A DNA stretch of 35,239 nt, from positions 1 to 35,239 of the forward strand of contig JAIUNP010000004.1 in NCBI GenBank assembly GCA_020161975.1, read 5' to 3'. Both the position numbers and the translations under genes were made by a program. The notes under the pieces were generated by a model that saw nothing but the letters and a program-made list of their open reading frames with translations, was not told the DNA's origin and searched no databases. This document shows positions 16,726-35,239 of this stretch, piece by piece (within the stretch, counting starts at the first letter, position 1; each line of letters opens with the position of its first letter). The DNA comes from Pseudomonadota bacterium (GTDB lineage Bacteria > Pseudomonadota > Alphaproteobacteria > Rhizobiales > Beijerinckiaceae).

Positions 16726-17465
16726 CCGCACCGCTCATCGACCGCAGCCGCCTGTTTGACCTGATGGGCGAACTCAAGCTCTATGGCATGCGCGGCGCCT
16801 ACGACGAGGTCATGGCCCACGCCCTCAAGCGTCAGCATGAACCGCCGCGCATTCTTGGCGACTTGCTTGGAGCCGAGATTGCCGAGAAGCAGGCCCGCTC
16901 GATCAAATACCAACTGGCCATCGCCAAATTGCCGCTGGCCAAGGACCTCGCAGACTTCGACTTTGCCGGCACGCCGATCAACGAAGGGCTGGCGCGCGAT
17001 CTGGCCGGCGGCGCCTTCATCACCGATCAACGCAACGTCGTCATTGTCGGCGGCACGGGAACCGGCAAGACCCATCTGGCCATCGCCATCGCCCGCGCTG
17101 TCATCCGCAATGGCGCGCGCGGGCGCTTCTTCAATGTTGTCGATCTTGTCAATAAGCTTGAGGCCGAACTGCGCCAGGGCCGCCAGGGCCGCATCGCCGA
17201 CTACCTTGGCCGGCTCGACTTCGTCGTGCTCGACGAACTCGGCTATCTGCCCTTCGCCCAGGCAGGCGGCCAGTTGCTGTTCCACCTGATCAGCCGCCTC
17301 TACGAGCGCACCTCGATCATCCTTACCACCAATCTCGCCTTCGGCGAATGGCCGGGCGTCTTTGGCGACGCCAAGATGACCACGGCCTTGCTCGACCGCC
17401 TGACCCATCATTGCGACATCGTCGAAACCGGCAACGACAGCTGGCGCTTCAAGCACCGCGCCTGA
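16722..17465 (+). CDS. istB: IS21-family helper ATPase IstB
   Basis: A 247-residue AAA+ ATPase of the IstB/DnaC type that assists IstA at the target. Walker A is [15 protein letters not shown] (about 108-122) and Walker [13 protein letters not shown]; an Arg-containing sensor stretch follows ([14 protein letters not shown]). Length and N-terminal helical domain are normal. It is translationally coupled to istA. Both genes are intact, so the element is probably still able to move. Confidence 0.96.
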
Positions 17466-19545: not shown

Positions 19546-19671
19546 AATAGCGTTAACGCTGTTGCGGAATTGCCGCCATCCGTGACCAATCGGTCATAGT
19601 CTGGCTTGCAATGCTTGGTTAAGAAGGTAGGAACTTCGTAAGATTCTATTATCGGGTTTGGTTGGGGCGTG
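19546..19671 (+). promoter_or_regulatory. Leader/promoter region of the capsule export lipoprotein gene
   Basis: This AT-richer 126-bp gap holds two perfect palindromic sites: AGCGTTAACGCT (19549-19560) just after the DUF2793 stop, and TGACC-AATC-GGTCA (19583-19596). Weak promoter-like hexamers (TTGGTT, TAAGAT about 18 bases apart) precede the start. The palindromes could be operators for a regulator of capsule expression. Only the symmetry is directly visible; no regulator family can be named. Confidence 0.4.
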
Positions 19672-20846: not shown

Positions 20847-21656
20847 GTGGCCGGGGGGACGAAAGCTCCGGTCGCCCTCATCTCCGGGGGCTCCAGCGGT
20901 ATTGGTCTTGAGGTCGCGCGCCTGTTGCGCCAGCGCGGCTTTGATCTTCACATCGCAGCACGTGACACAGCGCGGCTTGAAAGCGCCCGTGCCGACCTGC
21001 TCGCCGCGCCTGGTGGTCGGATCGAGGTGCATCCGCTGGATGTCGCGGATTCGTCAGCCTGTGAAGCTCTTGTGACAGCTCTTCTCGCCCGCGAAGGCAG
21101 GATCGACTGGTTGGTCACCAGCGCGGGCATGGTCGAGCCGGGTATGTTTCTCGATCAGCCGCCAGAGGTTTTCCAGCGGCACATGCAGATCAATTATTTC
21201 GGCACGCTCAACCTCGTCTCCCCCGTCTCGAAGGCGATGGCAGCGGCTGGCACCGGGCGTATCGTGCTCATCTCGTCGGCGGCGGCCTTCACGGGCATCG
21301 TGGGCTATGCGGCTTATTGCCCCTCGAAGGCCGCCGTGAAAGCGCTGGGGGAGGCGCTTTATGCCGAGCTGGGTGCGCATGGCATTTCTGTCAGTGTGGC
21401 CTTCCCGCCCGACACGGATACGCCACAGTTGGCCGCAGAACAGGCGAATAAGCCGGAGGTCACAAAGCAGATTACCGCCGGGGGGGGCGTTCTCTCTGCA
21501 GGTCAGGTCGCCCAAGCGATTGTCGAAGGGGCGGGATCTGGTCGGCTCGTCGTAGCGCCGGGACTGTTGATGCAACTATTTTCTTGGGTGTACAGCCTCT
21601 ACGCGCCTTTCTTCCTGCGATTGCAGGGGCGCATTCTCAAGAAAACAACGATCTGA
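20847..21656 (+). CDS. Short-chain reductase resembling 3-ketodihydrosphingosine reductase (KDSR/RkpH-like)
   Basis: A 269-residue SDR starting with GTG. The nucleotide motif is SGGSSGIG (about 13-20), NYFG and SSAAAF carry the catalytic Ser about 144, and YCPSK gives Tyr about 157 and Lys about 161. The stretch SVAFPPDTDTPQLAAEQ is distinctive: the PPDTDTP pattern is typical of eukaryotic KDSR/TSC10 reductases, which reduce 3-ketosphinganine. A hydrophobic C-terminal segment (about 235-258), also seen in that family, suggests membrane association. Rhizobial capsule loci contain a comparable SDR, RkpH. With the alpha-oxoamine synthase at the right edge this gives the first two steps of sphingoid-like lipid synthesis; the substrate is inferred. 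Confidence 0.78.
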   Translation: MAGGTKAPVALISGGSSGIGLEVARLLRQRGFDLHIAARDTARLESARADLLAAPGGRIEVHPLDVADSSACEALVTALLAREGRIDWLVTSAGMVEPGMFLDQPPEVFQRHMQINYFGTLNLVSPVSKAMAAAGTGRIVLISSAAAFTGIVGYAAYCPSKAAVKALGEALYAELGAHGISVSVAFPPDTDTPQLAAEQANKPEVTKQITAGGGVLSAGQVAQAIVEGAGSGRLVVAPGLLMQLFSWVYSLYAPFFLRLQGRILKKTTI

Positions 21657-21690
21657 AGCGCTCTGTAAAAGCTGAAGTCAAACGCTCTAG

Positions 21691-22884
21691 TTACGGCGAA
21701 GCGTTGTTCAACAGGCCCAAGAGTGCTCGCCGATAAACATCGATGTTTCTTTGGAATGGCGAAAATTCTGTCATATTGATTGCAGAAGTGTTGGCTGGCG
21801 AAGTCAGTTGCGCGGCCAGATGCCTGTCATCGCCGGGCACGAAAAATTCGATCTTCTCAGGGTAATAGTGGCTGAAACCTTCAAAGGCTTTGATCCGTGA
21901 GGCTACGATCCGCTTTCCGAGTTCAAGAGCAAGACTGATCGGACCCGACGAGGAAAGGCCCACCTCACGGTAGGGCATCACTACAGCATCGCAAATCGCG
22001 ATCGCGTTCAGAAACTGCTCGTCGGGAAGAGTGCCGCAGAAGTGAACACGGGAGGGTATTGCGCGGGCTTCTTCAATCAGCATGTCCCGATAACGGGTAT
22101 CAGTTTGGGTGGGGGCAAGATCGCCAAAAATGGCGAGATGATGTTCAGGCCCGAGATGCTTCAAGGCACGAATGGCGACCTCGAAGCCCTTGTAGGGCGC
22201 CATGAAGCCGAAAACACCGTAGAGTTTCGCTTCTGTTGGTAGATGAGCAATGGCCGCAAACTGCGACCGATTGGAGCGGATCTTGGCGGCTTCGACGTCA
22301 CCAGGTGACAGATACGCGAGAGGATGGTCAAAGACGTCGGACAGACCATACTCATGGACCAGCCTGTCACGGTCACCGACGTTATGAGTAATGAAGCAAA
22401 TGGGTTTTTTCTGCTGTAGATTTCGTAAATAGCGACCGTATAAATGTTTACCCAATCTTGAATAGTTGATCGCCCTGTAAATTGAGCGACCGATGCCTTC
22501 AAAATCGCCTTTGAATGCCTGCCGGGCGTCATCCAGCAGGTTGATATGTGGTTTTGGGGTAAGCCAATGCAGGGTCAGGCAGAGTGCAGGCGCAGCGCCG
22601 AAAAGAATTTTAAGACGGCGCAAGATCTGCGATGTCTCCACGCCATAGAGACCATGCTCAACATGTATGTTGACCATATCAAACTCGGCCAAACGTGATG
22701 CGATGCCACGAATATGATTGTCGCCTTCGATGATGTCTGCGCCGGTTGGGCTTGAGAGCAGATCCACATCAAGCGGAAGGACTTCGACATCAGCAAAACT
22801 GTGAAATTGCGGTACGAGACGCGACACATAGTTCGCAATCCCGCAAAGCCGATCATAGCTGCTGATAACGGCCAGGCGTGGCAT
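21691..22884 (-). CDS. Glycosyltransferase, family 4-like (capsule)
   Basis: A 397-residue cytoplasmic or membrane-associated GT-B glycosyltransferase. The N-terminus PRLAVISSYDRLCGIANYVS has the donor-loop GIANY pattern. The C-terminal half has LYGVFGFMAPYKGFEVAIRA, a P-loop-like AIFGD segment, CDAVVMPYREVGLSSSGPIS and a late FEGFSHYYPE. ATG 22884 has AAGGA upstream and aligns with the start of the paralogue at 24188-25486; an upstream in-frame ATG at 22923 is unlikely. It lies alone, after the terminator of the gmd operon, and converges on the reductase gene with a 34-bp gap. It probably adds a sugar to the capsule repeat unit; donor and linkage unknown. Confidence 0.82.
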   Translation of the reverse strand: MPRLAVISSYDRLCGIANYVSRLVPQFHSFADVEVLPLDVDLLSSPTGADIIEGDNHIRGIASRLAEFDMVNIHVEHGLYGVETSQILRRLKILFGAAPALCLTLHWLTPKPHINLLDDARQAFKGDFEGIGRSIYRAINYSRLGKHLYGRYLRNLQQKKPICFITHNVGDRDRLVHEYGLSDVFDHPLAYLSPGDVEAAKIRSNRSQFAAIAHLPTEAKLYGVFGFMAPYKGFEVAIRALKHLGPEHHLAIFGDLAPTQTDTRYRDMLIEEARAIPSRVHFCGTLPDEQFLNAIAICDAVVMPYREVGLSSSGPISLALELGKRIVASRIKAFEGFSHYYPEKIEFFVPGDDRHLAAQLTSPANTSAINMTEFSPFQRNIDVYRRALLGLLNNASP

Positions 22885-23002
22885 GAAGTATCCTTCGGGC
22901 GGCTTGCTGGTGTGAAAATACAATCACGACGATAATGGACGCGATGAATGCATACCCTCGGTAGTGCGTTGGAGAGCCATGCATATCCCTCCAGATTTGG
23001 GC

Positions 23003-23040
23003 AAAAAAACGCGCTCGTCCAAAAGCAGGGAGCGAGCGCG
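23003..23040 (-). terminator. Rho-independent terminator after gmd (leftward)
   Basis: On the minus strand CGCGCTCG pairs with CGAGCGCG around a 15-base loop and is followed by seven T residues. It lies 49 bases beyond the gmd stop and separates the leftward glycosyltransferase-gmd operon from the next leftward glycosyltransferase gene. Confidence 0.88.
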
Positions 23041-23088
23041 CTGGAAGTGTTTAGTGAGGCTGTGTGTTATCACTGTCTCAAAAAAATA

Positions 23089-24165
23089 TTACAGGAAATC
23101 TTCGAGGATAACCTTGCCGTCCTGAATGCGCTTCTGTCGCTCGATATCGCGATTGACCATGTCGTGGACCAGCTGGGTGAAGCCGGTCTGGTGACGCCAG
23201 CCGAGAACCTGCTGGGCCTTGGAAGGATCCCCAACCAGCAATTCCACCTCAGCCGGACGGAAATACGCCGGATCCACCTGAACAAGCACTTCGCCGGTTG
23301 CTGAGTCGCGACCGATTTCATCCACACCTGTACCGGACCATTCGACCTTGCGGCCGATGCAACCGAAGGCGGCATCACAGAAATCACGCACGGAGTGCAT
23401 CTCGCCCGTGGCCAGAACATAATCGTCGGGCTTGTCCTGCTGCAGCATCAAATACATGCCATAGACATAGTCACGCGCATCGCCCCAGTCGCGCTTGGCA
23501 TCGAGATTACCCAGCCGGAGCGGTGCGGTCGAACCGAGCGCAATGCCTGCCACCGTCTTGGCAATCTTGCGCGTTACAAAAAGCTCGCCGCGCATGGAGC
23601 CTTCGTGGTTGAACAAGATGCCGTTGGATGCGTGCATGCCGTAGGACTCACGGTAATTCACGGTAATCCAATAGCCATAAAGCTTCGCGACGCCATAGGG
23701 GCTGCGCGGATAGAACGGCGTCGTCTCGCGCTGCGGGATTTCCTGGACCTTACCGTAAAGCTCCGACGTCGAGGCCTGATAAAACCGGCATGTCTCCGTC
23801 AGGCCCGCAAAACGGATAGCCTCGAGCAGGCGAAGGGTGCCGATACCATCGGCGTTGGCTGTATACTCCGGGGCTTCGAAGCTGACAGCCACATGGCTCT
23901 GCGCCGCAAGGTTGTAGATCTCGTCCGGCCGCGTCTGTGCAACGATGCGGTTGAGCGACGGAAAGTCCGTCAAATCACCATAGTGAAGCTTCAGGTTCTC
24001 CACAGGCGCCCCGCCCGCCATGAAAGCGCAGAGACGGTGCACGTTCGGCGCTGAAGACCTGCGAACGATACCATGCACTTCATAGCCCTTGTCGAGCAGA
24101 AGGCGGCAAAGATGAGTGCCATCCTGGCCGGTAATCCCGGTGATAAGTGCAACTTTCTTGGGCAT
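23089..24165 (-). CDS. gmd: GDP-mannose 4,6-dehydratase
   Basis: A 358-residue extended SDR that makes GDP-4-keto-6-deoxy-mannose. Motifs: nucleotide site [30 protein letters not shown], the HYGDLTD stretch, [14 protein letters not shown] (catalytic Ser/Thr and Glu), and [10 protein letters not shown] with Tyr-X3-Lys. The usual NHESPRRGETFVTRKI segment is [16 protein letters not shown] here, so the loop before the conserved Arg-Gly-Glu is altered. Length is normal. It follows the second glycosyltransferase gene after 22 bp and ends at a strong terminator. With the epimerase-like gene at 25632 it should supply a 6-deoxyhexose for the capsule. ATG 24165 suits the family start. Confidence 0.93.
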
Positions 24166-24187
24166 GGGTTTTCTTTCGGATTGCAAG

Positions 24188-25486
24188 TCAGGCGTTGTAC
24201 GTTTTTTCCATCAAGCCAGCCAGCGTGCGGATGTTGAACCGCTCATACGCTGCATCCCGCTCTTTGGAAAAATCTCGGTCAGTGAACTGGATCTTCTGAG
24301 CCAGCTCCATGGCGTTCCCGATATCGAAGGTATTGTAGACTTCGCCGAAATATTTCCGGGCCTCAAAGAACGACAAATTGTTGCTGGCAAACATTCGTGC
24401 GCCGGACTCAAGAGCCAGCACCAGAACGCCCGACATGCTCTGTCCCACTTCAAGATAGGGAAGCACGACCGCATCGCACAGGTGCAGCGCCTCGATGAAG
24501 TCGGGATCAGACAAGTTACCCATGAACCGCATGCGGCGGATCAAATCTTCACGGGCATCATCAAGCGTTGTCGGTCCCTGACCTTTGGCAACCTTGAGTT
24601 TGATCAGCTTGTCCAGCGCCTTTTGCTCTCCGGCAAGACGCCGCTCTTCAATGCTTCGAACACTATCCGTAATCTTCGCAAGGAAGGGGTCGATCTCGGT
24701 GTACTCACGAATCGTCTGAGGATGTTGCGAGCCAAACATCGCCAAGGCATAGTTGGGAGGAAGAAATTCCATGGCGGCAACAGCCGTTTCTACGCCCTTG
24801 TATGCCGAAATATACCCGAAGATGCCGACCAGTTTTGTCCCGGGGTTGAAACCATGCTTGGCAAGGAAAGCTTCCTTGTTTCCCATATCCTTAACCTGAG
24901 CGCGCTCCTCAGGGGTCAGGAATGCCAGAGGATGATCAATACAATTATCGAAGCCGTACATTTCTTTGATGATACGTCGATCACGCTTTGTGTGAACAAA
25001 GACCCATGCATTCTTTTCTTTTGATGCCTCGGCCACTTTGTTCACAACATTCTGATAAAGACGTTCGTACTTGCGACGGTTCATCAGGGCATGAAAATGC
25101 GCGTTTGAGCGGGTCTCAATCCACTGGCCGATGGCATCTGCGATAGTAACGGAAGGCGGATCTACGCGATGCATTGTCACAATAATATTGCGAGAAGCTT
25201 CAATGAGCCAGCCAACGCGGCGCAGGATATCCGCAGGATTGGTGCCATACAGTCCAGCTTCGAACTGTATATTAACACAGTCGAAAGATTTCAGCTTTTC
25301 GGCGATCTCGCGGATGTGTTCATCTGCGTGCTTTTTGAATAGTTTTCCGGATTTCTGTATAAAGAAAAGATCTAACGGGATAACTTCAGTTTCATATGAA
25401 GAAGATAGCGCGTTTTTGAGGACATGCGTGTAAGAAGCATTGCCGCAGCTCTCGTTATAGCTGCTGACGATCGCTAATTTTTTCAT
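24188..25486 (-). CDS. Glycosyltransferase, family 4-like, paralogue of the 21691-22884 gene
   Basis: A 432-residue GT-B enzyme. The start [20 protein letters not shown] parallels LAVISSYDRLCGIANY of its paralogue. Other shared blocks are [11 protein letters not shown]-like [61 protein letters not shown] and [17 protein letters not shown]. It is longer by an inserted Lys/Glu-rich helical segment (about residues 285-325, [18 protein letters not shown]) that the paralogue lacks. ATG 25486 fits the paralogue alignment; an upstream in-frame ATG at 25537 is possible because the ribosome-binding site at 25486 is weak. First gene of a leftward pair with gmd. It probably transfers a sugar, perhaps a GDP-deoxyhexose, to the capsule chain. 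Confidence 0.82.
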
Positions 25487-25631
25487 TGGAACTGCACCGT
25501 GCTTGACGATCTTATTGCGTGCGGTTAGCACTTTCATTGTCCAAATGTCAATCTTTGTGGGTGCCACGGGTTGCCGCCAGCGCCGTGGATGAACCCGGTG
25601 TCAGTTTCCTGTCTCAAAAGTCGGATGAACT
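25487..25631. promoter_or_regulatory. Divergent intergenic region between glycosyltransferase-gmd and epimerase genes
   Basis: The 145 bp between two divergent starts must carry both promoters. A short inverted pair, CCACGG and CCGTGG, flanks GTTGCCGCCAGCG. No consensus promoter or known operator was recognised. Confidence 0.4.
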
Positions 25632-26555
25632 ATGTCGCGCATCGTTGTTACCGGGGCTAGCGGGGTCGTCGGGCATGCCCTCGTCACTCATTTGAAGGCG
25701 ATGGGGCGAGATGTTGTCCCGCTGGCCGGGCGCGCTGACGTCAATCTCGAATCATTTGATGAGACACTACGCGTTTTCGAGAAGCATAAGCCCAGCGAAG
25801 TCTATCACATCGCGGGCGCCGTTTTCGGCTTGGGAGGCAACTCCGCTTTCCCGGGTGATGCTTATCGTCGTAACGTGCTGATCAATACGCATGTGGTCGA
25901 AGCTTCGCGCTTGGCCGGCGTCGGAAAGATCGTCGCAATGGGGTCGGCTGCCATGTACGCCGATCAGGAAATCCCGTTTTTCCGCGAAGAAGATGTCATG
26001 AAAAACCTGCCCCATAAGTCTGAACAGGCTTATGGTTTCGCCAAGCGGGGGCTGCTTGTGCAGTTGGAGGCTTATCGCCAGCAGTTCGGGTTGGAGTTCG
26101 CCTTTGCCATCGCAACCAACATGTATGGCCCGCATGATCGCTTCGATCCGCGCTACGGCCACGTGATTCCATCGCTGATCACGAAATTTGCATCAGCGGG
26201 ACCCGATGATGTTGTTGAGATTTGGGGTGATGGAAGCCCGACGCGGGACTTTCTTTACGCCGCAGATGCCGCCAAGGGCTTGTCCTTGATGATGGAAAAG
26301 GGGGAGGGGGCTTATAACCTCGCCACAGGGCAGAGCGTCCAGATTGCAGATCTCGTGACGGTTCTTTCTGAGCTGTTCCCCAAAACAAAGTACCGTTGGG
26401 ATACCAGCAAGCCGCTGGGGCAGCTCGCCCGCTCTTACGCTACCGAGCGTTTGGCCAAGCTGGGCTTTGTGCCTGATTTCAGTTTGCGACAGGGTTTGGA
26501 AGAGACTGTCCGTTGGTTTAACGCCAATCAGGATGTCATCCGGCGATATGTGTAA
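25632..26555 (+). CDS. GDP-L-fucose-synthase-like NAD(P)-dependent epimerase/reductase
   Basis: A 307-residue extended SDR. Landmarks of GDP-fucose synthase: nucleotide motif TGASGVVGHAL, DVNLES (where family members read DLxD), VYHIAGAVFGLGGN, NVLINTHVVEAS, YGFAK (Tyr-X3-Lys), TNMYGPHDRFDPRYGHVIPS and EIWGDGSPTRDFLY. The catalytic His of the GHVIP segment is kept. However, the position of the epimerising Cys (GSSCIY in the E. coli enzyme) reads GSAAMY, so the acid/base Cys is replaced by Ala. It may therefore be a pure 4-ketoreductase or make a different deoxysugar from the Gmd product. The ribosome-binding site is weak. It is followed after 30 bp by a glycosyltransferase in the same direction. 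Confidence 0.82.
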   Translation: MSRIVVTGASGVVGHALVTHLKAMGRDVVPLAGRADVNLESFDETLRVFEKHKPSEVYHIAGAVFGLGGNSAFPGDAYRRNVLINTHVVEASRLAGVGKIVAMGSAAMYADQEIPFFREEDVMKNLPHKSEQAYGFAKRGLLVQLEAYRQQFGLEFAFAIATNMYGPHDRFDPRYGHVIPSLITKFASAGPDDVVEIWGDGSPTRDFLYAADAAKGLSLMMEKGEGAYNLATGQSVQIADLVTVLSELFPKTKYRWDTSKPLGQLARSYATERLAKLGFVPDFSLRQGLEETVRWFNANQDVIRRYV

Positions 26556-26585
26556 GTTGAGGGGCGGTTAGCTGTCGGAAAAGAC

Positions 26586-27842
26586 GTGGGAACAGAGTTC
26601 GCTTATGACTTTTCGGGGTTCGCCAGTAATCTCTTTCAATCTGGCCCGACGGGTATCTCGCGGGTCGATGTAGAGGGTGCCCGCTACTTCGCCAGCACCT
26701 ACCCGCAGGAAACGGTGGGTCTCCATCAGCTTTACAGGATTTCTACGCGCTTCCCGGCCTCCACATTGTCCAATCTCGTTCAGCGGGTGGAGGATGGCTG
26801 GAGTGACTTCCCGGATTCAGAGCAGCGTGACGCCATTCTGGCTTGGCTCCGTGATGGCAGCAGGCCAGCGCGTTCGACAAAGACTGTTTCTGGGCACTCC
26901 TTCGCGGCGGATGCTGTCCGTCTCCTTCGGGGATGGCCATGGCACAGGTTCGGGTGTCCAGTGCCCGATGGGTGCAACTACATCAACGTCTCCTATGCAA
27001 ATGCCCGTCCACCGGGATCTTTGGCTTGGCTCAGAAGGCGGCCCGGCGTGCGCGCCTTTTTCATGGTGCACGATCTCATCCCGCTCAATCGTCCAGAGTG
27101 GTTTTGGGATGGATTGGAGGACGTGTTCCGGCGCCAAATCGAGTTGATTCTTGGTCTTGCGTCGGGAATTTTTACGCCAAGTGAGGTGGTTGCCAGTGCC
27201 GTCCGGGAGCATGCCATCACTTTGGGGCTGCCTGATTTGCCCGTTCGCGCCGTTCATCTGCCCACCTCTTCGGCTTTTCACCAAACCCTTGGCGATGGGG
27301 AGCTGCCCCCCTTCTTCGTGATGTGCGGCACGATTGAGCCGCGCAAGAATCACATGTTGATCCTGGATATCTGGGGCGAGATGGCGCGCAGGGGGCTGGA
27401 TGTCCCCAAGCTCCTGCTGTTCGGCAAGCGGGGGTGGAAAAATGAAGCCGTTTTTGAGCGACTGGAGCAAGACCACGCTCTCAGGCCGCATGTTTTGGAA
27501 ATCGCCGACATCTCGACGCCAGATCTTGCTTTTTTTGTTTCCCGAGCCCGGGCTTTGCTCATGCCCTCATTTGATGAGGGGTTCGGGTTACCTGTTGCGG
27601 AAGGGTTGGCATGCGGGACGCCCGTTGTTGCATCCGATATTCCTGTCTTCCGCGAGATCGCGAAGGGCTGCGCCACGTTGTGTGATCCTGGGCGACAGCA
27701 AGACTGGATGTCCGCGATTATGTGGCTAAGCACACAGGGCGAGGCGACAGAAAAGGCGCGCCTGATGGCGCGCCAGTTTCCCCATCGTACATGGTCGAAC
27801 TTTTATGATGATGTGGTCGCGTTTGTCCGCCACCCGCTGTGA
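26586..27842 (+). CDS. Glycosyltransferase group 1 (GT4), mannosyltransferase-like
   Basis: A 418-residue GT-B glycosyltransferase starting with GTG (GGAAAAGA upstream). The N-terminal acceptor domain has DFSGFASNLFQSGPTGISRV and FFMVHDLIPLNRPEWF. The C-terminal donor domain has FVMCGTIEPRKNHMLILDIW, LLFGKRGWKN and the E-X7-E-type motif MPSFDEGFGLPVAEGLACG, followed by TPVVASDIPVFREIA. The closest resemblance is to mannosyl- or rhamnosyltransferases of capsule and O-antigen clusters. It is co-directional with the epimerase-like gene 30 bp upstream and ends 13 bp from the convergent kpsE stop, with no terminator between them. Confidence 0.9.
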   Translation: MGTEFAYDFSGFASNLFQSGPTGISRVDVEGARYFASTYPQETVGLHQLYRISTRFPASTLSNLVQRVEDGWSDFPDSEQRDAILAWLRDGSRPARSTKTVSGHSFAADAVRLLRGWPWHRFGCPVPDGCNYINVSYANARPPGSLAWLRRRPGVRAFFMVHDLIPLNRPEWFWDGLEDVFRRQIELILGLASGIFTPSEVVASAVREHAITLGLPDLPVRAVHLPTSSAFHQTLGDGELPPFFVMCGTIEPRKNHMLILDIWGEMARRGLDVPKLLLFGKRGWKNEAVFERLEQDHALRPHVLEIADISTPDLAFFVSRARALLMPSFDEGFGLPVAEGLACGTPVVASDIPVFREIAKGCATLCDPGRQQDWMSAIMWLSTQGEATEKARLMARQFPHRTWSNFYDDVVAFVRHPL

Positions 27843-27855
27843 AAGGTCTATCTGT

Positions 27856-29166
27856 TCACATGTGGTCGCGAATAGAAGAAACTAGCAAAAGACCAAGCCC
27901 CCAGACGCCAAAGAAAATCGCAATCATCGTCAAGGCGTTGCGCGTGCGCTTTGGATATAGAGCGTCTTCAGCAAGGCTTGGGCGAACAAATGTCGCAAGA
28001 TACTTTTGCTGGCGCTCTGCCTCGATGCGCGCCTTTTGAAGCAATTCAAGCGCTGTGGCGTAATATCTTTCTGAAAACTGCTTTTCAATTTCCGCGTTTT
28101 CATATTCGCTGATGACGCGAGACAGAGTGTCTGCGCCCGATGTGCCAGACGCAGCTGTTACCTCTCCCTGCAGCTTCGTAATTTCTGCCTCAAGCGACGC
28201 TATGCGCGTCCTCAATACACCCAAGATCGGCGAGCCCGCGGCCAGAAAGGTTCTCTGGGATTGCATTTCAGCCTGTGCCAAAGTCAGTTCCCCACGCAGC
28301 TTGGCGATGAGGCCCAGCGTTGTTTCTGCGTTTTTGCGCGGGTCGAGGATGCCCTCCTTGTCGCGCAGCTGACGCAGCGCCACCTGCGCCTTCAGCAAAC
28401 GACTTTCGGACTTGAGAACTTCCTGTTCTGCAAATTGGACAGAGTCCTTTCTCGCCTTCATGGACAGGTCATTCACCAGAGCCTCCGAGAGGGCGTGAAT
28501 CTCCTTCGCCACCGTCAACGCATCCTCGCGCGTGAAAGCGCGAACGCGAACAACAACAGTGCTCGTGGAGTTCTCGTAAAAGCTGTCCGTCTGCTTCTTC
28601 CAATAATCGACAAGATCTTCGATTGAGTTCTTGGGGTTGAAGCGTGACAGGAAGTCAGCGTCCTTGTTGGCGAATATGCTCCTCAAATCGATCTTTGACT
28701 GAATCTGATCAATGATTTCACGACTCTGAATGTATTGGATCAGAGCATGGGAGTCCGTCCCTGATTGGTCTGCCACGCCAAGACCACGCAGCAACCCAGA
28801 GCTTTGAACCGATGCGGACTCCATGGAGCGGATGCCAAAGCGGGTCTCGGAAACAAATTGGTCGGCAGCAATCCCATAATTGTAGATGAGCGCGAGCAGG
28901 CTCGGCAGGACAGCAACAAGCAGAAAGGAAATCAGCTTCCAGCGCGGACGCCGCCCCCCCCCTTCGGAGGTGAAAACCAGAGCGGTACGTATCGGCTCAA
29001 GCGCCTTCATGGCGCTTCGGGCGGAAGCCAGACTTCCGCGATCCGGTAACGGTGAAATGGCCCCCTGCTGTTCGGTGGGGTCGCCAGCAACGGGAGCGCC
29101 AGCTGCGACGGTTGCCGGGCCGGGGTGGACCGCAACAAGGCGTTCACTTGGTCTGGTTCCGGTCAT
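27856..29166 (-). CDS. kpsE: Capsule export inner-membrane/periplasmic adaptor (KpsE/BexC/CtrB type)
   Basis: A 436-residue protein of the polysaccharide co-polymerase class. A cytoplasmic Pro/Ala-rich N-terminus of about 75 residues leads to the first membrane span (about 77-97, KLISFLLVAVLPSLLALIYN). A periplasmic part with long coiled-coils follows (about 220-380, QEVLKSESRLLKAQVALRQL and YYATALELLQKARIEAERQQ), and a C-terminal span (about 412-431) precedes SSIRDHM. It joins the KpsMT pump to the outer-membrane lipoprotein at 19672. The N-terminal extension is longer than in E. coli KpsE. The ATG overlaps the kpsT stop, so the gene is the last of a coupled kpsM-kpsT-kpsE operon. Confidence 0.93.
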   Translation of the reverse strand: MTGTRPSERLVAVHPGPATVAAGAPVAGDPTEQQGAISPLPDRGSLASARSAMKALEPIRTALVFTSEGGGRRPRWKLISFLLVAVLPSLLALIYNYGIAADQFVSETRFGIRSMESASVQSSGLLRGLGVADQSGTDSHALIQYIQSREIIDQIQSKIDLRSIFANKDADFLSRFNPKNSIEDLVDYWKKQTDSFYENSTSTVVVRVRAFTREDALTVAKEIHALSEALVNDLSMKARKDSVQFAEQEVLKSESRLLKAQVALRQLRDKEGILDPRKNAETTLGLIAKLRGELTLAQAEMQSQRTFLAAGSPILGVLRTRIASLEAEITKLQGEVTAASGTSGADTLSRVISEYENAEIEKQFSERYYATALELLQKARIEAERQQKYLATFVRPSLAEDALYPKRTRNALTMIAIFFGVWGLGLLLVSSIRDHM

Positions 29167-29816
29167 CCTGCGAGAACCTTGTAATGTTCCATTGCTCCCT
29201 CGAGGCTGTTGTAGAGCGTTAAGGAGCCATCGTGGAGCACGGCACCCATATCACAATAGTTTCGGATCGTGTCGATATTGTGGGACACCAGAATGATATC
29301 TGCGTGGAGTACTCTTTTCTGAAACTCCTGCAAGGCCTTACGTCTGAAACGGCTGTCGCCCACTTCCGTGATTTCATCAATGAGGTAGACATCGAAGTTC
29401 ACCGCGAGGCAGGTGCCGAAGGCCAGCTTGGAGCGCATGCCCGAGGAGTATGTGTTCATCGGCATGTCGAAATAGGATCCGATTTCGGCAAACCACTGAA
29501 CGTAGTCCACGGTCTCATCCACGTTCAGCCCGTAGACGCGAGCGATGAAGCGAACGTTCTCCCGACCTGTCATGGAGTGGTGGAAGCAGGAGTCGAACCC
29601 GAGAGGAAAGGACACAAGCCCCTGTCGGATAACGCGCCCCTTGTCTGGAGCTTCCGCACCAGCCAGAATTTTGATCAATGTTGATTTGCCGGCGCCATTG
29701 AGGCCGAAAATCCCGATGTTGCGTCCTTCGGGAAACTCAATCGATACATCGCGCAAGACGGTTTTTCGTCCGTTGCGCGTTTTGAAGTCCTTGCTGACCC
29801 CCTCGAAGATAATCAT
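29163..29816 (-). CDS. kpsT: Capsule ABC exporter ATPase (KpsT/BexA/CtrD type)
   Basis: A 217-residue ATPase. Walker A FGLNGAGKSTL (about 38-48), the family-typical short Q-loop region (GFDSCFHHSMTGRENVRFIA), signature YSSGMRSKLAF, Walker B VYLIDEITEVGD and H-loop LVSHNIDTIR are all present. Length matches KpsT/BexA. It energises transfer of capsule polymer across the inner membrane with the permease encoded just upstream; both ends overlap neighbours by 4 bp, indicating coupled, stoichiometric synthesis. Confidence 0.95.
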   Translation of the reverse strand: MIIFEGVSKDFKTRNGRKTVLRDVSIEFPEGRNIGIFGLNGAGKSTLIKILAGAEAPDKGRVIRQGLVSFPLGFDSCFHHSMTGRENVRFIARVYGLNVDETVDYVQWFAEIGSYFDMPMNTYSSGMRSKLAFGTCLAVNFDVYLIDEITEVGDSRFRRKALQEFQKRVLHADIILVSHNIDTIRNYCDMGAVLHDGSLTLYNSLEGAMEHYKVLAG

Positions 29817-31732
29817 TCGATTTCAAGCAACTTATGTCGGAACATGCGCTCGGCCAGAACCCCGACGCTGACCAGCGCAATGCTCACTGCTGCCAGATAC
29901 TCAAGGCGAAGCCAAGGGGGATCGTGTCCTTCAAACATCGAGGTTCGGAACAGTTCGATGCTTTGGAAGATTGGACCCCATTCGAGAATCTGGCGCACTT
30001 CCACAGGCATCATCGAGGGGACGTAGAAAATACCGGATGTAAAATACATGATCGCGATCGAGATGGACCATACTTTCTCCCAAGTATGAAAGAAGGCCAT
30101 CAAAATGGCATTGATAACACCTGCACCAAAAGCGCACCCGCCCAGAAGAATGAATGTCAGCATGAAGTTGAGGATATCTTTTGGCATAGCATCATAGCCC
30201 AATAGGGCAAAAGCACTTAGCAAAACCAAAGCAACAAAAAATTCCGTCGCGATTTCAAGGATGGCGCGCGACATGAAAACATCAAGTGTAGTGACAGGCG
30301 GTAACTGCAACAGCTGTCTGTTGGCTCGAACCGCAAACATCAGTGCGCCACCAGTATGCGTGAAAAGGTGATAGGGAATAATGCCAGTGAAGTAGAACAA
30401 GGCAAAACTATTGCCGATCGGGGGGTCACCCTTAGCCGTAAACTGGATAATGGCCACAAGAAGGGAAATATGGGCCAAGGGTTCAAAAAGCGCCCAAAGG
30501 TAGCCCAGTTTTGCCCGCCCAAATCGTCCCTGAATCTCGCGCAAGATCAGCGCACCGAGCACACGGAGCTGTGTGCGGAACGCATCCATTGCAGTGAACT
30601 TGCGCCGGGGAGGGCGGCTTTGTGCGGCTTGCCGTTTGAGCGCTGCCAGGCTGTTTCCATCGATCGGCGTGGAGCCTTCCGTCAGGAAGCGACGTGTCAA
30701 AATATGCAGCATCGAGCGGCCGATAGGTTCGTCATCAGGCTTGTGCCGCATGACGGCCGCGCCATAGGGAACCGCCTCTGAGTATCGCCCCAGCTCCGTA
30801 TTGGCCGCAAAGCTGACCCGCAGGGCTTCGTCATGCATGGGGTCGAGGTCAAGGACCGCGCGCATGTCTTCGAGCGCCTCCTCGTAGCGCCCCAGAGAGC
30901 ACAAGACGATTCCCCGGTGCAATCTCAGGCCGATATGTTCAGCGTCGAGCGCGAGCCCCGCAGAGGCCGCATCAATCGAGCCAAGCGGGTCGTTGGCGGC
31001 ATTGCGCGACACACTCATCAAGTGCCAGAGATCCGCCGTTTTCGTCTGCGCGGTGTCAAAGATCGCCTCTAGACACTGGAGGGCTTCATCATAGCGCCCA
31101 TTCACGAGGAGATTGTGGACGTGGCCCTGAATGTAGGTCGGATTATCCGGTTCAAGCTCCCAGGCACGAGTCGCGAAAGCAGCAGCCTGCGTTCGCCGCT
31201 CCAACGCTCCGGCAGCCACACTGAGGTGATAGAAAATCAGGGCGTCATTGCCATGCGCCCGCGCAGCCCGGACCAGATAATTGGCCGCTTCGAGAGTTCT
31301 GCCGAAAAAATTGAGCAGAACACCACAGTGGCGGGCAAATTCCCAATTTTCCGGCGCACCATCTGACGCCTTGATGGCGTGCCGAACGGACGCTTCCAAT
31401 GCGCCCTGTGCGGCCAGAAAGCCACTTAACTGGCGATGTTGTTCGGCATCCAGAAGACTCGCCTGATCAAGAACCTGCAGAGCCGATATCGCCTCGGCCT
31501 GGTTTTGTGTCGCACTGAAGATGACCGCACAATGAGACGCCACGGCGAGATTGCCGGGAGCCAGATCTCGTGCCAGACGCGCCTTTTCGAGCGCCAGCGG
31601 CATACGACCGAGTGCGAGTGCCGCCTGCGACTCACCGAGAGCTTTCATGGCCTCGGCTTCCTGCGCAGGCGCGCTGCTGCCGAGCTTGTCCTGAGAAAAC
31701 GACTCCTGTGGGTCCATTGACTTCGCTGTCAC
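29813..31732 (-). CDS. kpsM: TPR domain fused to capsule export permease (KpsM/BexB/CtrC type)
   Basis: A 639-residue fusion. Residues 30 to about 345 are tetratricopeptide-like helical repeats (examples: YDEALQCLEAIFDTAQ; GLRLHRGIVLCSLGRYEEAL followed by EDMRAVLDLDP), without a signal peptide, so they should be cytoplasmic. Residues about 378-639 are a complete ABC-2 permease: amphipathic start (FRTQLRVLGALILREIQGRF), RAKLGYLWALFEP, six membrane spans and a basic end. KpsM proteins normally have about 260 residues, so the TPR part is extra. No ribosome-binding site is visible before the internal Met at about 30589, so a separate KpsM start is unlikely. First gene of the kpsM-kpsT-kpsE operon. 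The TPR domain could recruit polymer-synthesis enzymes; this is inferred. Confidence 0.92.
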   Translation of the reverse strand: MTAKSMDPQESFSQDKLGSSAPAQEAEAMKALGESQAALALGRMPLALEKARLARDLAPGNLAVASHCAVIFSATQNQAEAISALQVLDQASLLDAEQHRQLSGFLAAQGALEASVRHAIKASDGAPENWEFARHCGVLLNFFGRTLEAANYLVRAARAHGNDALIFYHLSVAAGALERRTQAAAFATRAWELEPDNPTYIQGHVHNLLVNGRYDEALQCLEAIFDTAQTKTADLWHLMSVSRNAANDPLGSIDAASAGLALDAEHIGLRLHRGIVLCSLGRYEEALEDMRAVLDLDPMHDEALRVSFAANTELGRYSEAVPYGAAVMRHKPDDEPIGRSMLHILTRRFLTEGSTPIDGNSLAALKRQAAQSRPPRRKFTAMDAFRTQLRVLGALILREIQGRFGRAKLGYLWALFEPLAHISLLVAIIQFTAKGDPPIGNSFALFYFTGIIPYHLFTHTGGALMFAVRANRQLLQLPPVTTLDVFMSRAILEIATEFFVALVLLSAFALLGYDAMPKDILNFMLTFILLGGCAFGAGVINAILMAFFHTWEKVWSISIAIMYFTSGIFYVPSMMPVEVRQILEWGPIFQSIELFRTSMFEGHDPPWLRLEYLAAVSIALVSVGVLAERMFRHKLLEIE

Positions 31733-31784
31733 CTCGACTGGGTTCCGGACGACGACGAACCGGACGCGCGCCTTCTAGATAACG

Positions 31785-31816
31785 AAAAAAGAAGGCGACA
31801 TGAACATGTCGCCTTC
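31785..31816 (-). terminator. Rho-independent terminator of the RTX protease gene (leftward)
   Basis: On the minus strand GAAGGCGACATG and CATGTCGCCTTC form a perfect 12-bp stem with a two-base loop, followed by TTTTTT. It lies 36 bases after the protease stop and 52 bases before the kpsM start, separating the two leftward transcription units. Confidence 0.92.
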
Positions 31817-31852
31817 ATGATTATTGCCAAGCGAGAGAGATTTTTCCGGTGC

Positions 31853-34054
31853 TCAGAGGAAAATGATATCCGAGGCCTGAAGCGTCGGGTTGTTGAGCAT
31901 GAAGCTCACAACATGCGCAGCCCCCGCGCCCGTTCCGTCAGCGTCGAACCACAAAGCGCGCGTATTGCTGTCGTAGTAGAGCGTCGTCACGGCGGAATTC
32001 GGCAGCGCATTGGCACCGGCGAAGAAATTGACGCCCGCCGTCAGGGTGAAACCGGGTGCAACCCCGAATGCCGCCGCTGAGAATGCCAAGCGATCCCCTT
32101 CAAGGCGGTTGAAGTCGTGCACGAGATCCGCTGCATCGGTTGGGTTGTCGAAGTAGAAGATATCATTGTTGGCACCGCCCACCAGGTTATCCGCACCGCC
32201 ACTACCAATCAGAAAGTCGCCGCCGTCCTGACCGAAAATCGTATCGTTGCCGTCGCCTCCAACGAGGGTATCGTTGCCATACTCGCCAAAGAGCGTGTCA
32301 TGTCCGCTTTCGCCGAATGCCACGTCATCTCCGAAGCCACAAATGACGATGTCATCACCGGTGCCGCCGTAAAGACGATCCGCCCCATCTTCGCCTGAGA
32401 GCGTATCAAAGCCGTCCTGCCCGTAAAGGGTGTCATTGCCGGTGCCGCTGACAAGCGTGTCGTTGCCGAATTCGCCAAAGAGCGTGTCGTTACCGTCTTG
32501 CCCCTGAACGATGTCGTCGCCGAACCCGCCGATCAGCGTGTCATTGCCGAACTCACCGAACATCGTGTCGTTGCCGTCCTCACCGTAGGCGGTATCATCC
32601 CCGAAGCCGGTGATGATCATGTCATTGCCCGTACCGCCGAAGATGGTGTCGGTTCCATCCTCACCGAAAAGGCTATCATTGCCCGCCCCGCCAGAAACGA
32701 TATCGTTCCCGGCTCGACCGTTGATCGTATTGTCAGCGCTGTTGCCAGTGATGGTATCGGCGCCAGAGCCGCCGATGGCATTCTCAATGACGACGCCGTT
32801 GGCAATCGAGATGTTGCTGGTAAGACCGCCGATGTTGGAGAAGCTCTCGGCGTTCAGGTTGATCGTCTGGGCCTGGGAATAGCCGGAGGCGTCGATGGTA
32901 TCGGTGCCGCCGCCATCCCAGATGCAGAACGCACGGGTCGTGCCGGTCGTGAAATTATACGGTGCGCCGGCATTCGAGTTGAAGCCATAGGTGGTGTTGG
33001 TGTTACGCGTTAACATGTTGGCGCCGTAGATGCGCTGCGCCGCATAGATATCGAAGAGCATCGGCGAATTGGCATAAGCGCCGAAGTTGCCGCCCGTGCT
33101 AGTTTCGTCGAAGTAGCTCATGATGGTGTATTGCTGGGTATCCTGCGTGAACTGGGCATTGTTCGCGTAGGTGATGCTCAGGCCCGGCGCGGCATTGTAG
33201 AGGCCGGGGTGAGACAGACCGATGGCATGACCCAGCTCGTGCATGATGGCGAAGAAACCATAGCTGCCATAGTCGAGCGTCTGTGTGGTCGAGATCGAGG
33301 TGGTGTTGAGCCACACATCGCCCGCCGAATCCGTGGCAACCGTTGAACCCGGATAATAGGCAAAGGCACCCGAGCCATCGCCGGCGTCGGTGTAGTTGCT
33401 GAAAAGGATCGTGGCGCTGTCGGTATAGCCGCCCGGGTTCACTTCGATGAAGTTGACGTTGCAGATCTCCGACCACATCCGAAGCGTGTTGCGGACGGTC
33501 GCCATCTCTGACGCCGTCAGGCGCGAGAAGGTCGACAGGTTATGGTCGGTAACAGAGCCGGCATAGGTCGCATTGGTGTTGCGGAAGCCATAGGTCACGA
33601 TCGCAGCTGCGCCCGGAATCACGTTCCAAGCATAGTTGGTGTCGATGACGCCCGCGCCCATGCTGGTGTCAAAACCGATGCGATTGCCGGTGTTGTAGGT
33701 GAACTGATATTGCCCCGTCGTCGAGGGCTGAAACGAAGAAGCATCCAGGTAATAGGTGCCGCTCGTCGTCGCGGTATAGGTAATCAGCGAGTTGAGGTTC
33801 GGCAAACCATCATCATTATCGGCCAGCACAGTCGTGCCGTCTGCCGCGTAAAGGCGCAGGAACGTGTCGATCACGTTATTGGTGCCCGTGCCCGAAAGCG
33901 CGAAGGTATAGGTCTGCCCGGCCGTAAGCGTCACCCGATACCAGTCGTGATCGCCGCTGCCCGTCAGCGTTCCCTGAATGCTCTGCCCGGCCGTGAGGGA
34001 ATACGTCGTGGACGACGATGCTGCAGCATCAAGGCTTTCGGTGAACGTCGGCAT
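31853..34054 (-). CDS. Serralysin-like M10 metalloprotease with RTX repeats and N-terminal PPC domain
   Basis: A 733-residue secreted protein. Residues about 15-125 are a pre-peptidase C-terminal (PPC) type beta-domain (GDHDWYRVTLTAGQTYTF). A metzincin catalytic domain follows, with zinc site HELGHAIGLSHPG (about 272-284) and a Met-turn YTIMSYFDE. Residues about 430-640 carry many Ca-binding nonapeptides of the GGxGxDxφx kind (GNDTLIGGFGDD, GNDTLFGEFGND). The C-terminal 90 residues are the non-cleaved type I secretion region ending in hydrophobic DIIFL. No Sec signal is present. ATG 34054 has CAGGAGG upstream. It should be exported by a type I system, which is not in this window. Targets unknown; perhaps surface proteins or capsule release. 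Confidence 0.93.
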   Translation of the reverse strand: MPTFTESLDAAASSSTTYSLTAGQSIQGTLTGSGDHDWYRVTLTAGQTYTFALSGTGTNNVIDTFLRLYAADGTTVLADNDDGLPNLNSLITYTATTSGTYYLDASSFQPSTTGQYQFTYNTGNRIGFDTSMGAGVIDTNYAWNVIPGAAAIVTYGFRNTNATYAGSVTDHNLSTFSRLTASEMATVRNTLRMWSEICNVNFIEVNPGGYTDSATILFSNYTDAGDGSGAFAYYPGSTVATDSAGDVWLNTTSISTTQTLDYGSYGFFAIMHELGHAIGLSHPGLYNAAPGLSITYANNAQFTQDTQQYTIMSYFDETSTGGNFGAYANSPMLFDIYAAQRIYGANMLTRNTNTTYGFNSNAGAPYNFTTGTTRAFCIWDGGGTDTIDASGYSQAQTINLNAESFSNIGGLTSNISIANGVVIENAIGGSGADTITGNSADNTINGRAGNDIVSGGAGNDSLFGEDGTDTIFGGTGNDMIITGFGDDTAYGEDGNDTMFGEFGNDTLIGGFGDDIVQGQDGNDTLFGEFGNDTLVSGTGNDTLYGQDGFDTLSGEDGADRLYGGTGDDIVICGFGDDVAFGESGHDTLFGEYGNDTLVGGDGNDTIFGQDGGDFLIGSGGADNLVGGANNDIFYFDNPTDAADLVHDFNRLEGDRLAFSAAAFGVAPGFTLTAGVNFFAGANALPNSAVTTLYYDSNTRALWFDADGTGAGAAHVVSFMLNNPTLQASDIIFL

Positions 34055-34190
34055 GGCGCTAGAACCTCCTGTCCCAGAGAAAAACAAATGGGCTATTCAG
34101 CCGGTACCGCAGTTGTATTACGGATGCGTAAGCCAGCAAGGTAAAACCTGCGCACTCTGCGTCGGCCTAGTCCAAAATCACAGCAGCGAA

Positions 34191-35239
34191 CTAGAGCACC
34201 AAAGAGCGCAAGGTATCGACCGCCCGGTCGAGTTCCGGCTCCGTATGCCCCGCATTGATGAAAAAGCGAAGACGCGCCGTCCGCTCCGGAACTCCCGGCG
34301 GCAGTATCGGGAAGGCGTTGATACCCGCTTCAAACAGCTTCTGTGCCACCTGAAGCGTCTTGATCGTCTCGCCGATATAGACCGGAATGACGCCATACCC
34401 CCAGGCGGTGCCGCACTCCAGCCCCGCCGCCTTGGCTTTCGCGATGAAATACTGGCTGTTGGCTTGCTGGCGCGCAACGCGCTCCGGCTCGCGGCGCATG
34501 ATCTCCAGCGCCTTGGCGCTGCCCGCAGCCACCGAGGCGGGCATCCCCACCGAATAGACAAAACCTGCCGCGTGGCATTTGAGCAAATCCACCGCCACCG
34601 CCGAACCCGCGACATAGCCGCCGCAGCCGACAAGCGTTTTCGAGAGCGTGCCGAACCAGAGGTCAGCAAGCCCTGCGGCCACACCCTGATGCTCGAAGAG
34701 GCCACGTCCGGTTTTGCCCAGCACGCCGAGGCCATGGGCATCGTCGATCATCAGCCAGGCGCCAAAACGGGTTTTCAGCTCCGCAAGGCGGGCCAGATCC
34801 GGCCCGTCGCCATCCATGGAGTAGAGCCCCTCGGCGACGATCAGGCAGCGCTCGAAGCGGTGGCGATCCGCGCTCAACAGGCGCTCCAACGCTTCCATGT
34901 CGTTATGCGCGAACACACGGCGCGTCGCGCCCGACAGCTGTGCGCCGACAACGATGCAGTTATGGATCAGGGCATCATGGACGATGAGGTCTTTCGGCCC
35001 CATCAGCGCGGCAAGCGTGGAAACGCCCCCCGCATGGCCAGAGTTGAAGACGATGCAGTCCTCTGCGTCGTAAACCTCGGCCAGCCCGCGTTCGAGATCG
35101 CGGTGCACCGCACGCTCCCCGGCGCTGATCCGGCTCGCGGAAACGGAGGTGCCGTAGGTCTCAACCGCCGCAATGGCGGCCGCCTGAATCTCGGGGTGAC
35201 CATTGAGGCCGAGATAATCGTAGGAGGCGAAGTTGAGAA
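34191..35239 (-). CDS. Alpha-oxoamine synthase (serine palmitoyltransferase/RkpG-like), 5' end beyond window
   Basis: At least 348 residues of a PLP enzyme that condenses an amino acid with an acyl thioester. From the window edge it reads NFASYDYLGLNGHPE, then GTSVSASRISAGE, FNSGHAGGVST (PLP stacking region), IDDAHGLGVLG (pyridine-nitrogen Asp) and GTLSKTLVGCGGY with the Schiff-base Lys. The C-terminus is complete (ARLRFFINAGHTEPELDRAV). Family members are AONS, KBL, ALAS and SPT; sequence alone does not fix the substrate. Rhizobial capsule loci carry a comparable RkpG beside RkpH. Here the reductase at 20847 is KDSR-like, so a 3-ketosphinganine-type product is plausible. Probably about 50-60 N-terminal residues lie outside the window. 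Confidence 0.88.
   Translation of the reverse strand, partial: LNFASYDYLGLNGHPEIQAAAIAAVETYGTSVSASRISAGERAVHRDLERGLAEVYDAEDCIVFNSGHAGGVSTLAALMGPKDLIVHDALIHNCIVVGAQLSGATRRVFAHNDMEALERLLSADRHRFERCLIVAEGLYSMDGDGPDLARLAELKTRFGAWLMIDDAHGLGVLGKTGRGLFEHQGVAAGLADLWFGTLSKTLVGCGGYVAGSAVAVDLLKCHAAGFVYSVGMPASVAAGSAKALEIMRREPERVARQQANSQYFIAKAKAAGLECGTAWGYGVIPVYIGETIKTLQVAQKLFEAGINAFPILPPGVPERTARLRFFINAGHTEPELDRAVDTLRSLVL

Follow-up and report, generated by a model that had tools for sequence, protein, structure and literature searches.

In Pseudomonas fluorescens MYb115, according to the available part of the report, C24-C28 sphinganines and probable phosphoglycerol-sphingolipids depend on the polyketide synthase (PKS) SgaA and the alpha-oxoamine synthase (AOS) SgaB; SgaB forms 3-ketosphinganines from serine and acyl-CoAs and, compared with L-alanine and glycine, uses L-serine almost exclusively, SgaC is a proposed homologue of 3-ketodihydrosphingosine reductase (KDSR), and 6,101 homologous clusters were counted (PMC12134224). 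We analyzed a 35,239-nucleotide stretch of DNA from an alphaproteobacterium of the family Beijerinckiaceae (hereafter the window), which carries genes for an AOS and a KDSR-like short-chain reductase (SDR) together with capsule export genes. By a modest balance of probability, the window covers the central part and one end of a capsule locus of Rkp/Wcb/Sga type, with a sphinganine-like lipid as carrier for the capsule.

Related loci have been described from the capsule side. In the parts of these sources available to us, rkp-1 products are said to make and modify a specific lipid carrier for secretion of capsular polysaccharide (KPS) (PMC4881576), an exoA rkpH double mutant of Sinorhizobium fredii HH103 has neither exopolysaccharide (EPS) nor KPS (PMC8227245), and wcbR/rkpA-type PKSs sit with capsule genes (PMC3908369). 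rkpA is among the genes that affect KPS, and the title of a reference cited there names a phospholipid anchor of the 3-deoxy-D-manno-oct-2-ulosonic acid (Kdo) homopolymer (PMC5539429); such an anchor fits either phosphoglycerol-sphinganine or a glycerophospholipid. The available parts of PMC9386255, PMC5748678 and PMC2945791 held nothing decisive. Among the matches listed from open-licence full texts, a scope that leaves two primary rkp papers outside, no published sphingoid capsule anchor for rkp/wcb loci was found.

The alpha-oxoamine synthase

The AOS gene (34191..35237, minus strand) lies at the right edge of the window. The window is the entire contig G000:C150 of a draft genome of 465 contigs that is 79% complete, and the N-terminus of the AOS lies past the contig edge, so that its NCBIfam scores are those of a truncated protein. 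The product matched Aminotran_1_2 (2.8e-44), and the pyridoxal phosphate motifs that an earlier note on this DNA had ascribed to it were found (HDALIHN, DDAHG and TLSKT). Relatives were collected by a scan of genome contigs, from which the best 80 of at least 594 loci were kept. A maximum-likelihood tree of 84 rows, including 42 of these 80 loci, placed the window AOS within a PKS-linked clade of 55 rows (support 100/91), where it groups with those of loci L074 and L075 in a nested branch (100/86). The clade has S. meliloti, burkholderial, Pseudomonas, Nitrosomonas, planctomycete and other members. It stands apart from 5-aminolevulinate synthase (ALAS), canonical alphaproteobacterial serine palmitoyltransferase (SPT), 2-amino-3-ketobutyrate CoA ligase (KBL) and BioF; of the four BioF rows, L183 formed a stray long branch.

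Other identities of the synthase were considered and rejected. The window AOS fell outside the ALAS and KBL clades. Canonical SPT, a separate clade in the tree, was rejected also by score: the window protein reached 267, 255 and 165 bits against cut-offs of 640, 500 and 670, and the full-length relative L036 reached 269, 268 and 184 bits. For the biotin-pathway enzyme BioF (TIGR00858, cut-off 426.45 bits), the window protein scored 338.6 and L036 351.9 bits, and the window AOS lay outside the BioF rows of the tree; this cut-off is strict, since any gene exceeded it in only 4 of 60 genomes. No bio genes were present among the window genes examined. A grouping with the biotin enzyme next to bio genes, which would have told against the reading of the earlier note, was therefore not seen. 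No NCBIfam AOS cut-off was reached by the window AOS or by any of three full-length relatives (L036, L066 and L068). Two other AOSs were found in the same genome, and both are ALAS above the curated cut-off.

The earlier note had taken the synthase and the reductase for the first two steps of sphingoid base synthesis, with rhizobial rkpG/rkpH as a parallel. Both are enzymes of the RkpG/RkpH kind; the synthase belongs to the PKS-linked clade and not to canonical SPT. Because of this placement, it probably receives its acyl chain from a PKS and not from acyl-CoA.

A sister AOS class (L047-L054, 42-45% identity) was observed at eight loci, two of them shorter than 9 kb. A PKS was present in 0/8, a capsule marker in 0/8, and an SDR of class B (defined below) in 3/8. 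At L047 the sister AOS lies near a small ketosynthase gene and a GT2/GT21-like glycosyltransferase gene, and genes resembling those for acyl carrier protein, MaoC and SDR were recognized by eye. This class perhaps makes a similar lipid by a dissociated (type II) route. On a Planktothrix plasmid (L071, 5452-13050), the AOS match falls within a frame annotated as type I polyketide synthase, a PKS-AOS fusion. A scan of viral contigs gave four AOS relatives, for which an origin in host DNA is a guess.

Linkage to polyketide synthase and capsule genes

Markers were counted in six-frame open reading frames (ORFs) with home-made profiles seeded from the window, L036, L041, L044, L046, L066-L070 and L073. 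Simple gene calling is poor in very GC-rich loci such as L043, and the PKS seed L036 lies on the same contig as L075, so that one seed is inside the test set. Because 29 of the 80 loci are shorter than 19 kb, tallies are reported both for the 51 long loci (≥19 kb) and for all 80. A giant PKS ORF was present in 49/51 long loci (61/80 of all), a capsule marker in 31/51 (38/80), and both in 29/51 (33/80). An SDR of class A or B was found in 22/51 (25/80), a gene resembling lipoteichoic acid (LTA) synthase in 25/51 (26/80), and a PF05159-type (KpsC/KpsS) gene in 21/51 (21/80). As controls we used 20 loci around more distant AOS paralogues (30-36% identity) in related genomes, five of these loci having an AOS placed in the ALAS clade; none of these markers was above threshold there (0/20). 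Judged by coordinates, the PKS was just upstream of the AOS on the same strand in 42 of the 51 long loci, and in seven an LpxC-like gene stood where the two meet. A PKS directly upstream of the AOS was seen also in the two loci whose AOSs are closest to that of the window. The PKS of the relative L036 has the domains KS-AT-DH-ER-KR-ACP.

The same genes were linked in close relatives. In genome G025, which is 100% complete, the SDR (61% identity), KpsD (79%), a glycosyltransferase (41%), the AOS (73%), the exporter, an RTX/M10 protease and a PKS lie within ~30 kb. In L074, from a metagenome-assembled Beijerinckiaceae genome, PKS, AOS, RTX/M10 protease and exporter follow in succession, interrupted by a single small ORF. 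The SDR and KpsD ORFs of G024 lie side by side on one strand and diverge from the start of a PKS, and a PF05159-type gene is found beside the SDR. The locus observation is real and beyond chance: the same gene kinds occurred at 0/20 control loci and are linked in a relative. The proposed likeness of the two enzymes to RkpG and RkpH, and their link to capsule export, were borne out by the AOS clade, the locus counts and the linkage in G025.

G025 has a second PKS-AOS pair (L037, G025:C9), whose AOS is 65% identical to that of the window; no capsule export markers were found within the 20 kb fetched.

We also compared the markers with one another. LTA-synthase-like and PF05159-type genes showed no association in the 51 long loci (both, first only, second only, neither: 11/14/10/16; p 0.78), which ruled out their treatment as one unit. 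The SDR was associated with the LTA-synthase-like gene at p 0.025 and with the PF05159-type gene at p 0.043, values that are uncorrected and not independent of phylogeny.

The short-chain reductase

The SDR gene (20847..21656, plus strand) begins 8 bp after kpsD, and its product is a candidate for the RkpH/SgaC role. The product matched adh_short (4.4e-43), and the features attributed to it by the earlier note were present: PPDTDTP at residue 187, YCPSK at residue 157, and a C-terminal stretch that is hydrophobic in sequence and helical in the predicted model. The predicted structure (mean pLDDT 90.2) is that of a classical SDR with C-terminal helices. A fold search with this model returned classical SDRs; TSC10 was absent from the 50 rows shown by either program, and the search gave no discrimination.

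Two SDR classes were distinguished in the related loci. The motif PPDTxTP was present in 13/13 class-A members (window, S. meliloti, Shinella and others) and in 0/26 class-B members, some of which are partial. The window SDR belongs to class A, with 37% identity to the Shinella member. In a profile search with class A, TSC10 (8jat) ranked 4th among 719 PDB sequences; the alignment extends past the PPDTxTP region, where TSC10 itself does not have the motif. TSC10 joined class A at 98/97 in an SDR tree whose 26 background rows included 17 class-B sequences. Kinship of the window SDR to a true KDSR is suggestive, not settled, as judged from these comparisons.

Sixty genomes, the window's own included, were compared for the distribution of the SDR and of PF05159. 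A window-type SDR at E 1e-35 was found in three of them: its own genome, G025 and G024, the latter two having the closest AOSs among the 60. A plasmid search with the window SDR gave none at E 1e-30; weaker homologues exist on plasmids (L066 and L070).

Candidate linker enzymes

The earlier note had reported KpsC and KpsS as missing from the window. This is correct, and the absence extends further: PF05159 was not found in the 79% complete draft genome, by a search that was positive in an E. coli control, or in the complete genome of G025, which has the same linked genes. Among the 10 genomes with an AOS of at least 53% identity (own included), PF05159 was found in four (G007, G024, G045 and G047) and not in the window's own genome, G025, G002, G006, G034 or G049; in the other genomes it was found in 5/50. 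An RkpI-like query in the same 10 genomes gave a clear match in G007, a weak one in G024, and none in the window's own genome. Because PF05159 was found neither in this genome nor in G025, although 21/51 long loci have it, the window looks like a variant without KpsC/KpsS. The earlier note had placed a sphingoid-like anchor "instead of, or besides" the lyso-phosphatidylglycerol/poly-Kdo anchor; "besides" holds for the 21 long loci with PF05159-type genes, and "instead of" may hold for the window variant.

One glycosyltransferase family (seeds: window 26586-27842, L189, L040 and L041) was considered as a substitute for KpsS/KpsC. It recurs beside PKS-AOS loci and was found at 0/20 control loci. 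Because it occurs both with and without PF05159-type genes, it was kept only as a lead.

The LTA-synthase-like protein of a Pseudomonas plasmid locus matched lipoteichoic acid primase, the phosphoglycerol transferase GacH and LtaS in PDB. This homology to phosphoglycerol transferases would fit the phosphoglycerol-sphingolipids of MYb115. The presence of a phosphoglycerol-transferase-like gene in about half, and of a KpsS/KpsC-like gene in two fifths, of the related loci suggests that phosphoglycerol and Kdo are added first. The window variant seems to have neither gene. On S. meliloti pSymB, an LTA-synthase-like ORF (L066, 22097-23656) lies between the SDR and PF05159 genes; it is absent from the distributed gene table.

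Export genes and other genes of the window

A KpsMTED export machine is present, with KpsD, KpsT and KpsM recognized by Pfam domains and KpsE by TIGR01010, none above its NCBIfam equivalog cut-off. The KpsD/Wza-type outer-membrane polysaccharide export lipoprotein (19669..20838, plus strand) has Poly_export and SLBB domains. The other three genes are on the minus strand. The KpsE/BexC-type inner-membrane export protein (27856..29166) matched TIGR01010 at 4.9e-66 and no Pfam family. The KpsT-type ABC ATPase (29163..29816) matched ABC_tran at 9.5e-17, with models of polysaccharide and teichoic acid export ATPases on top, all below cut-off. The last (29813..31732) encodes an N-terminal TPR domain fused to a KpsM-type ABC permease (TPR_19 and ABC2_membrane; NF050053 KpsM 8.3e-36, below cut-off). 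The earlier note had placed a complete exporter between reductase and synthase: KpsE, KpsT and KpsM do lie inside this bracket, but KpsD lies just outside it, directly before the SDR, and KpsM is the TPR fusion. KpsM matches were present in 13 of the 51 long loci, and no other KpsM-type ORF of more than 450 aa was found among the 51.

Between exporter and AOS lies a gene for a serralysin-like M10 metalloprotease with RTX repeats (31853..34054, minus strand). Homologues occupy the same position between AOS and exporter in L036 (6539-8770) and L074 (11625-13940). Among the control loci, one of 20 had a strong and one of 20 a weak homologue.

The genes between SDR and exporter encode predicted glycosyltransferases and enzymes for GDP-mannose-derived sugars. 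Three are on the minus strand: a group-1 glycosyltransferase (21691..22923; PF00534 2.2e-07), a GDP-mannose 4,6-dehydratase (23089..24186; TIGR01472 532.9 bits, above the cut-off of 415), and a probable glycosyltransferase (24188..25567) assigned from position and sequence inspection only, with no Pfam family at E 0.001. On the plus strand are an NAD-dependent epimerase/reductase resembling GDP-fucose synthase (25632..26555; Epimerase 1.3e-47; NF047922 185.5 bits, below the cut-off of 500) and the group-1 glycosyltransferase of the recurring family (26586..27842; PF00534 5.1e-21; 41% identity to L189).

To the left of kpsD is a gene for a DUF2793 protein (18718..19545, plus strand; PF10983 1.3e-30), whose membership of the system is uncertain. 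DUF2793 lies near KpsD also in G025 (L189, 11944-13128), where the protein is 58.6% identical over 222 aa and two genes separate it from KpsD. An IS21-type transposase pair (rve/Mu-type integrase and IstB) is located at 15217-17465, left of the capsule genes.

Proposed pathway and rival explanations

On the slightly favored reading, that of a sphinganine-like capsule carrier, the long acyl chain would come from an iterative, fully reducing type I PKS that carries it on a domain of its own; to judge from relatives, this PKS would be encoded just past the contig edge. The AOS would condense the chain with an amino acid, of which L-serine is the most likely, under decarboxylation and so free it as a 3-keto sphingoid base, and the KDSR-like reductase encoded with KpsD would convert it to a sphinganine-like base. 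A glycosyltransferase may next begin the capsule chain, either on this base itself or on a form of it that bears a head group; once the polymer has grown, KpsMT, KpsE and KpsD may export it in lipid-linked form, and the lipid would keep it anchored. In the rkp/wcb type, a phosphoglycerol step and a KpsS-type Kdo step would be added, with phosphoglycerol-sphinganine as the counterpart of lyso-phosphatidylglycerol. This chain of steps is the best supported, its PKS, AOS and SDR steps by a published system of the same kind and by conserved linkage; for this organism we infer the chemistry, the first glycosylation and the function of the lipid as anchor. A sphingolipid-like anchor that replaces the customary one in tethering the capsule to the cell is suggested by the evidence, but not proven.

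Several observations weigh against this reading. The window has no PKS, and the rest of the draft genome gave only single-domain matches to the giant PKS of L036. Neither PF05159 nor an RkpI-like gene was found in this genome to account for the joining of lipid to glycan. No SDR of either class lies within 10 kb of the closest AOS neighbors, L074 and L075; in G025, which includes the contig of L075, the SDR is ~20 kb from the AOS, and for L074 the search was limited to its 21 kb. Compared with the window, G025 has the DUF2793-KpsD-SDR block in inverted orientation, and its exporter genes are reordered and only 28-44% identical (KpsT 44%, KpsE ~29%). In a cleaned SDR tree with 11 background SDRs, TSC10 grouped with class A at only 68/95, and rival placements of TSC10 were not rejected (p 0.23 and 0.12); of the comparison that the earlier note had proposed, the grouping of the reductase with RkpH-type SDRs and not with unrelated ones holds up, and its placement with KDSR/TSC10 lacks firm support. 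No capsule marker was found in 20 of the 51 long loci, seven of which had nothing but the PKS. In MYb115 the sphingolipids were detected in free form, and the letters "capsul" are absent from the main text of that report, as far as it was available (PMC12134224).

The last two points bear on another explanation, that PKS, AOS and SDR make a free membrane sphingolipid or signaling lipid and that their only tie to the capsule genes is a place in the same surface-polysaccharide island. The 20 long loci without a capsule marker would suit this explanation, as would the free sphinganines and probable phosphoglycerol-sphingolipids of MYb115 (PMC12134224, available part). We consider it rather unlikely, because KpsD and SDR are neighbors on one strand in the window and G025 and adjacent one-strand ORFs in G024, capsule markers are present in 31/51 long loci versus 0/20 controls, and the available text of PMC8227245 describes the exoA rkpH double mutant as lacking KPS. 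It is quite improbable that the capsule is of the ordinary group 2 type, anchored by lyso-phosphatidylglycerol/poly-Kdo, and that its KpsC and KpsS are encoded in the missing part of the genome. The genome is indeed only 79% complete, and PF05159 was found in 4/9 other genomes with an AOS of at least 53% identity; however, G025 at 100% completeness has the same linked genes and no PF05159 match, and a group 2 capsule leaves the AOS, the SDR and their linkage unexplained.

The product of the AOS might also differ. With alanine, glycine or another amino acid, the enzyme would make an amino ketone or amino alcohol leading to a deoxysphingoid or prodiginine-like product and not to sphinganine. The substrate choice of an AOS is hard to read from sequence, and the failure of the window AOS and its three full-length relatives to pass any NCBIfam AOS cut-off leaves room for such a product. 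The nearly exclusive L-serine preference reported for SgaB, a PKS-linked AOS that was not placed in our tree, argues against it (PMC12134224, available part), and we consider this product improbable.

A wider form of the favored reading is put forward tentatively, as a possibility with less than even prospects: that PKS-made sphingolipids anchor a widespread class of ABC-exported capsules. The first Kdo would, in the rkp/wcb type, be accepted by phosphoglycerol-sphinganine in place of lyso-phosphatidylglycerol; in the KpsC/KpsS-less window variant, another glycosyltransferase would start the glycan on the sphingoid base. A glycan begun on a sphingoid base in this way would, if true, be a new kind of capsule-lipid linkage. 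In the available parts of the literature, the lipid end of rkpA/wcbR-type capsules has so far been left as "a specific lipid carrier", and the 2025 finding of PKS-AOS sphinganines is not tied to capsule there. Joining the two gives a testable prediction of a sphinganine or phosphoglycerol-sphinganine capsule anchor in many Pseudomonadota and some members of other phyla. As the window variant shows, a capsule exporter can be accompanied by the lipid module even where no KpsC or KpsS is found.

Comparison with known systems

The S. meliloti rkp-1 region (rkpA-rkpG-rkpH-rkpI-rkpJ) has PKS, AOS, class-A SDR and a KpsD-like gene in one pSymB locus (L066), and its AOS is in the same clade as that of the window. 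The rkp gene names are assigned to L066 by gene content, as the record gives none. In contrast to the window's genome, in which neither was found, rkp-1 also has LTA-synthase-like and PF05159 genes; identity to the window proteins is 47.6% for the AOS and 36% for the SDR. Like the system proposed here, the rkp-1 region serves a capsule, being needed for KPS (PMC4881576 and PMC8227245, available parts).

The sgaA/sgaB/sgaC genes of P. fluorescens MYb115 were compared by description and not by sequence; they resemble the window module in having a PKS, an AOS and a KDSR homologue with sphinganine chemistry (PMC12134224, available part). Two other Pseudomonas loci (L068 and L110) differ from the window in their SDR, which is of class B, and in the presence of an LTA-synthase-like gene and PF05159-type genes. 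On plasmids of Caballeronia and Paraburkholderia, two loci (L067 and L069) have an AOS of the same clade as the window; unlike the window, they have an LpxC-like gene between PKS and AOS, a class-B SDR and an LTA-synthase-like gene. In the Burkholderia wcb cluster, wcbT is presumably the AOS gene. This cluster, also compared by description, is similar in having a wcbR/rkpA-type PKS beside capsule genes (PMC3908369, available part).

The group 2 capsule system (KpsMTEDCS) shares homologues of KpsM, KpsT, KpsE and KpsD with the window. It differs in two respects: no KpsC/KpsS (PF05159) was found in the window or its genome, and the window carries a lipid-synthesis module. In the fungal fumonisin pathway, FUM1 is the PKS and FUM8 the AOS. 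Fumonisin and sphingofungin are likewise PKS-derived sphingoid-like products made with a KDSR homologue (FUM13 and SphF, respectively), according to the available part of PMC12134224; they are secreted metabolites with no capsule, and the likeness is by function only. Judged by its gene content, the window locus would be a variant of an already known kind of locus, now with a specific chemical prediction.

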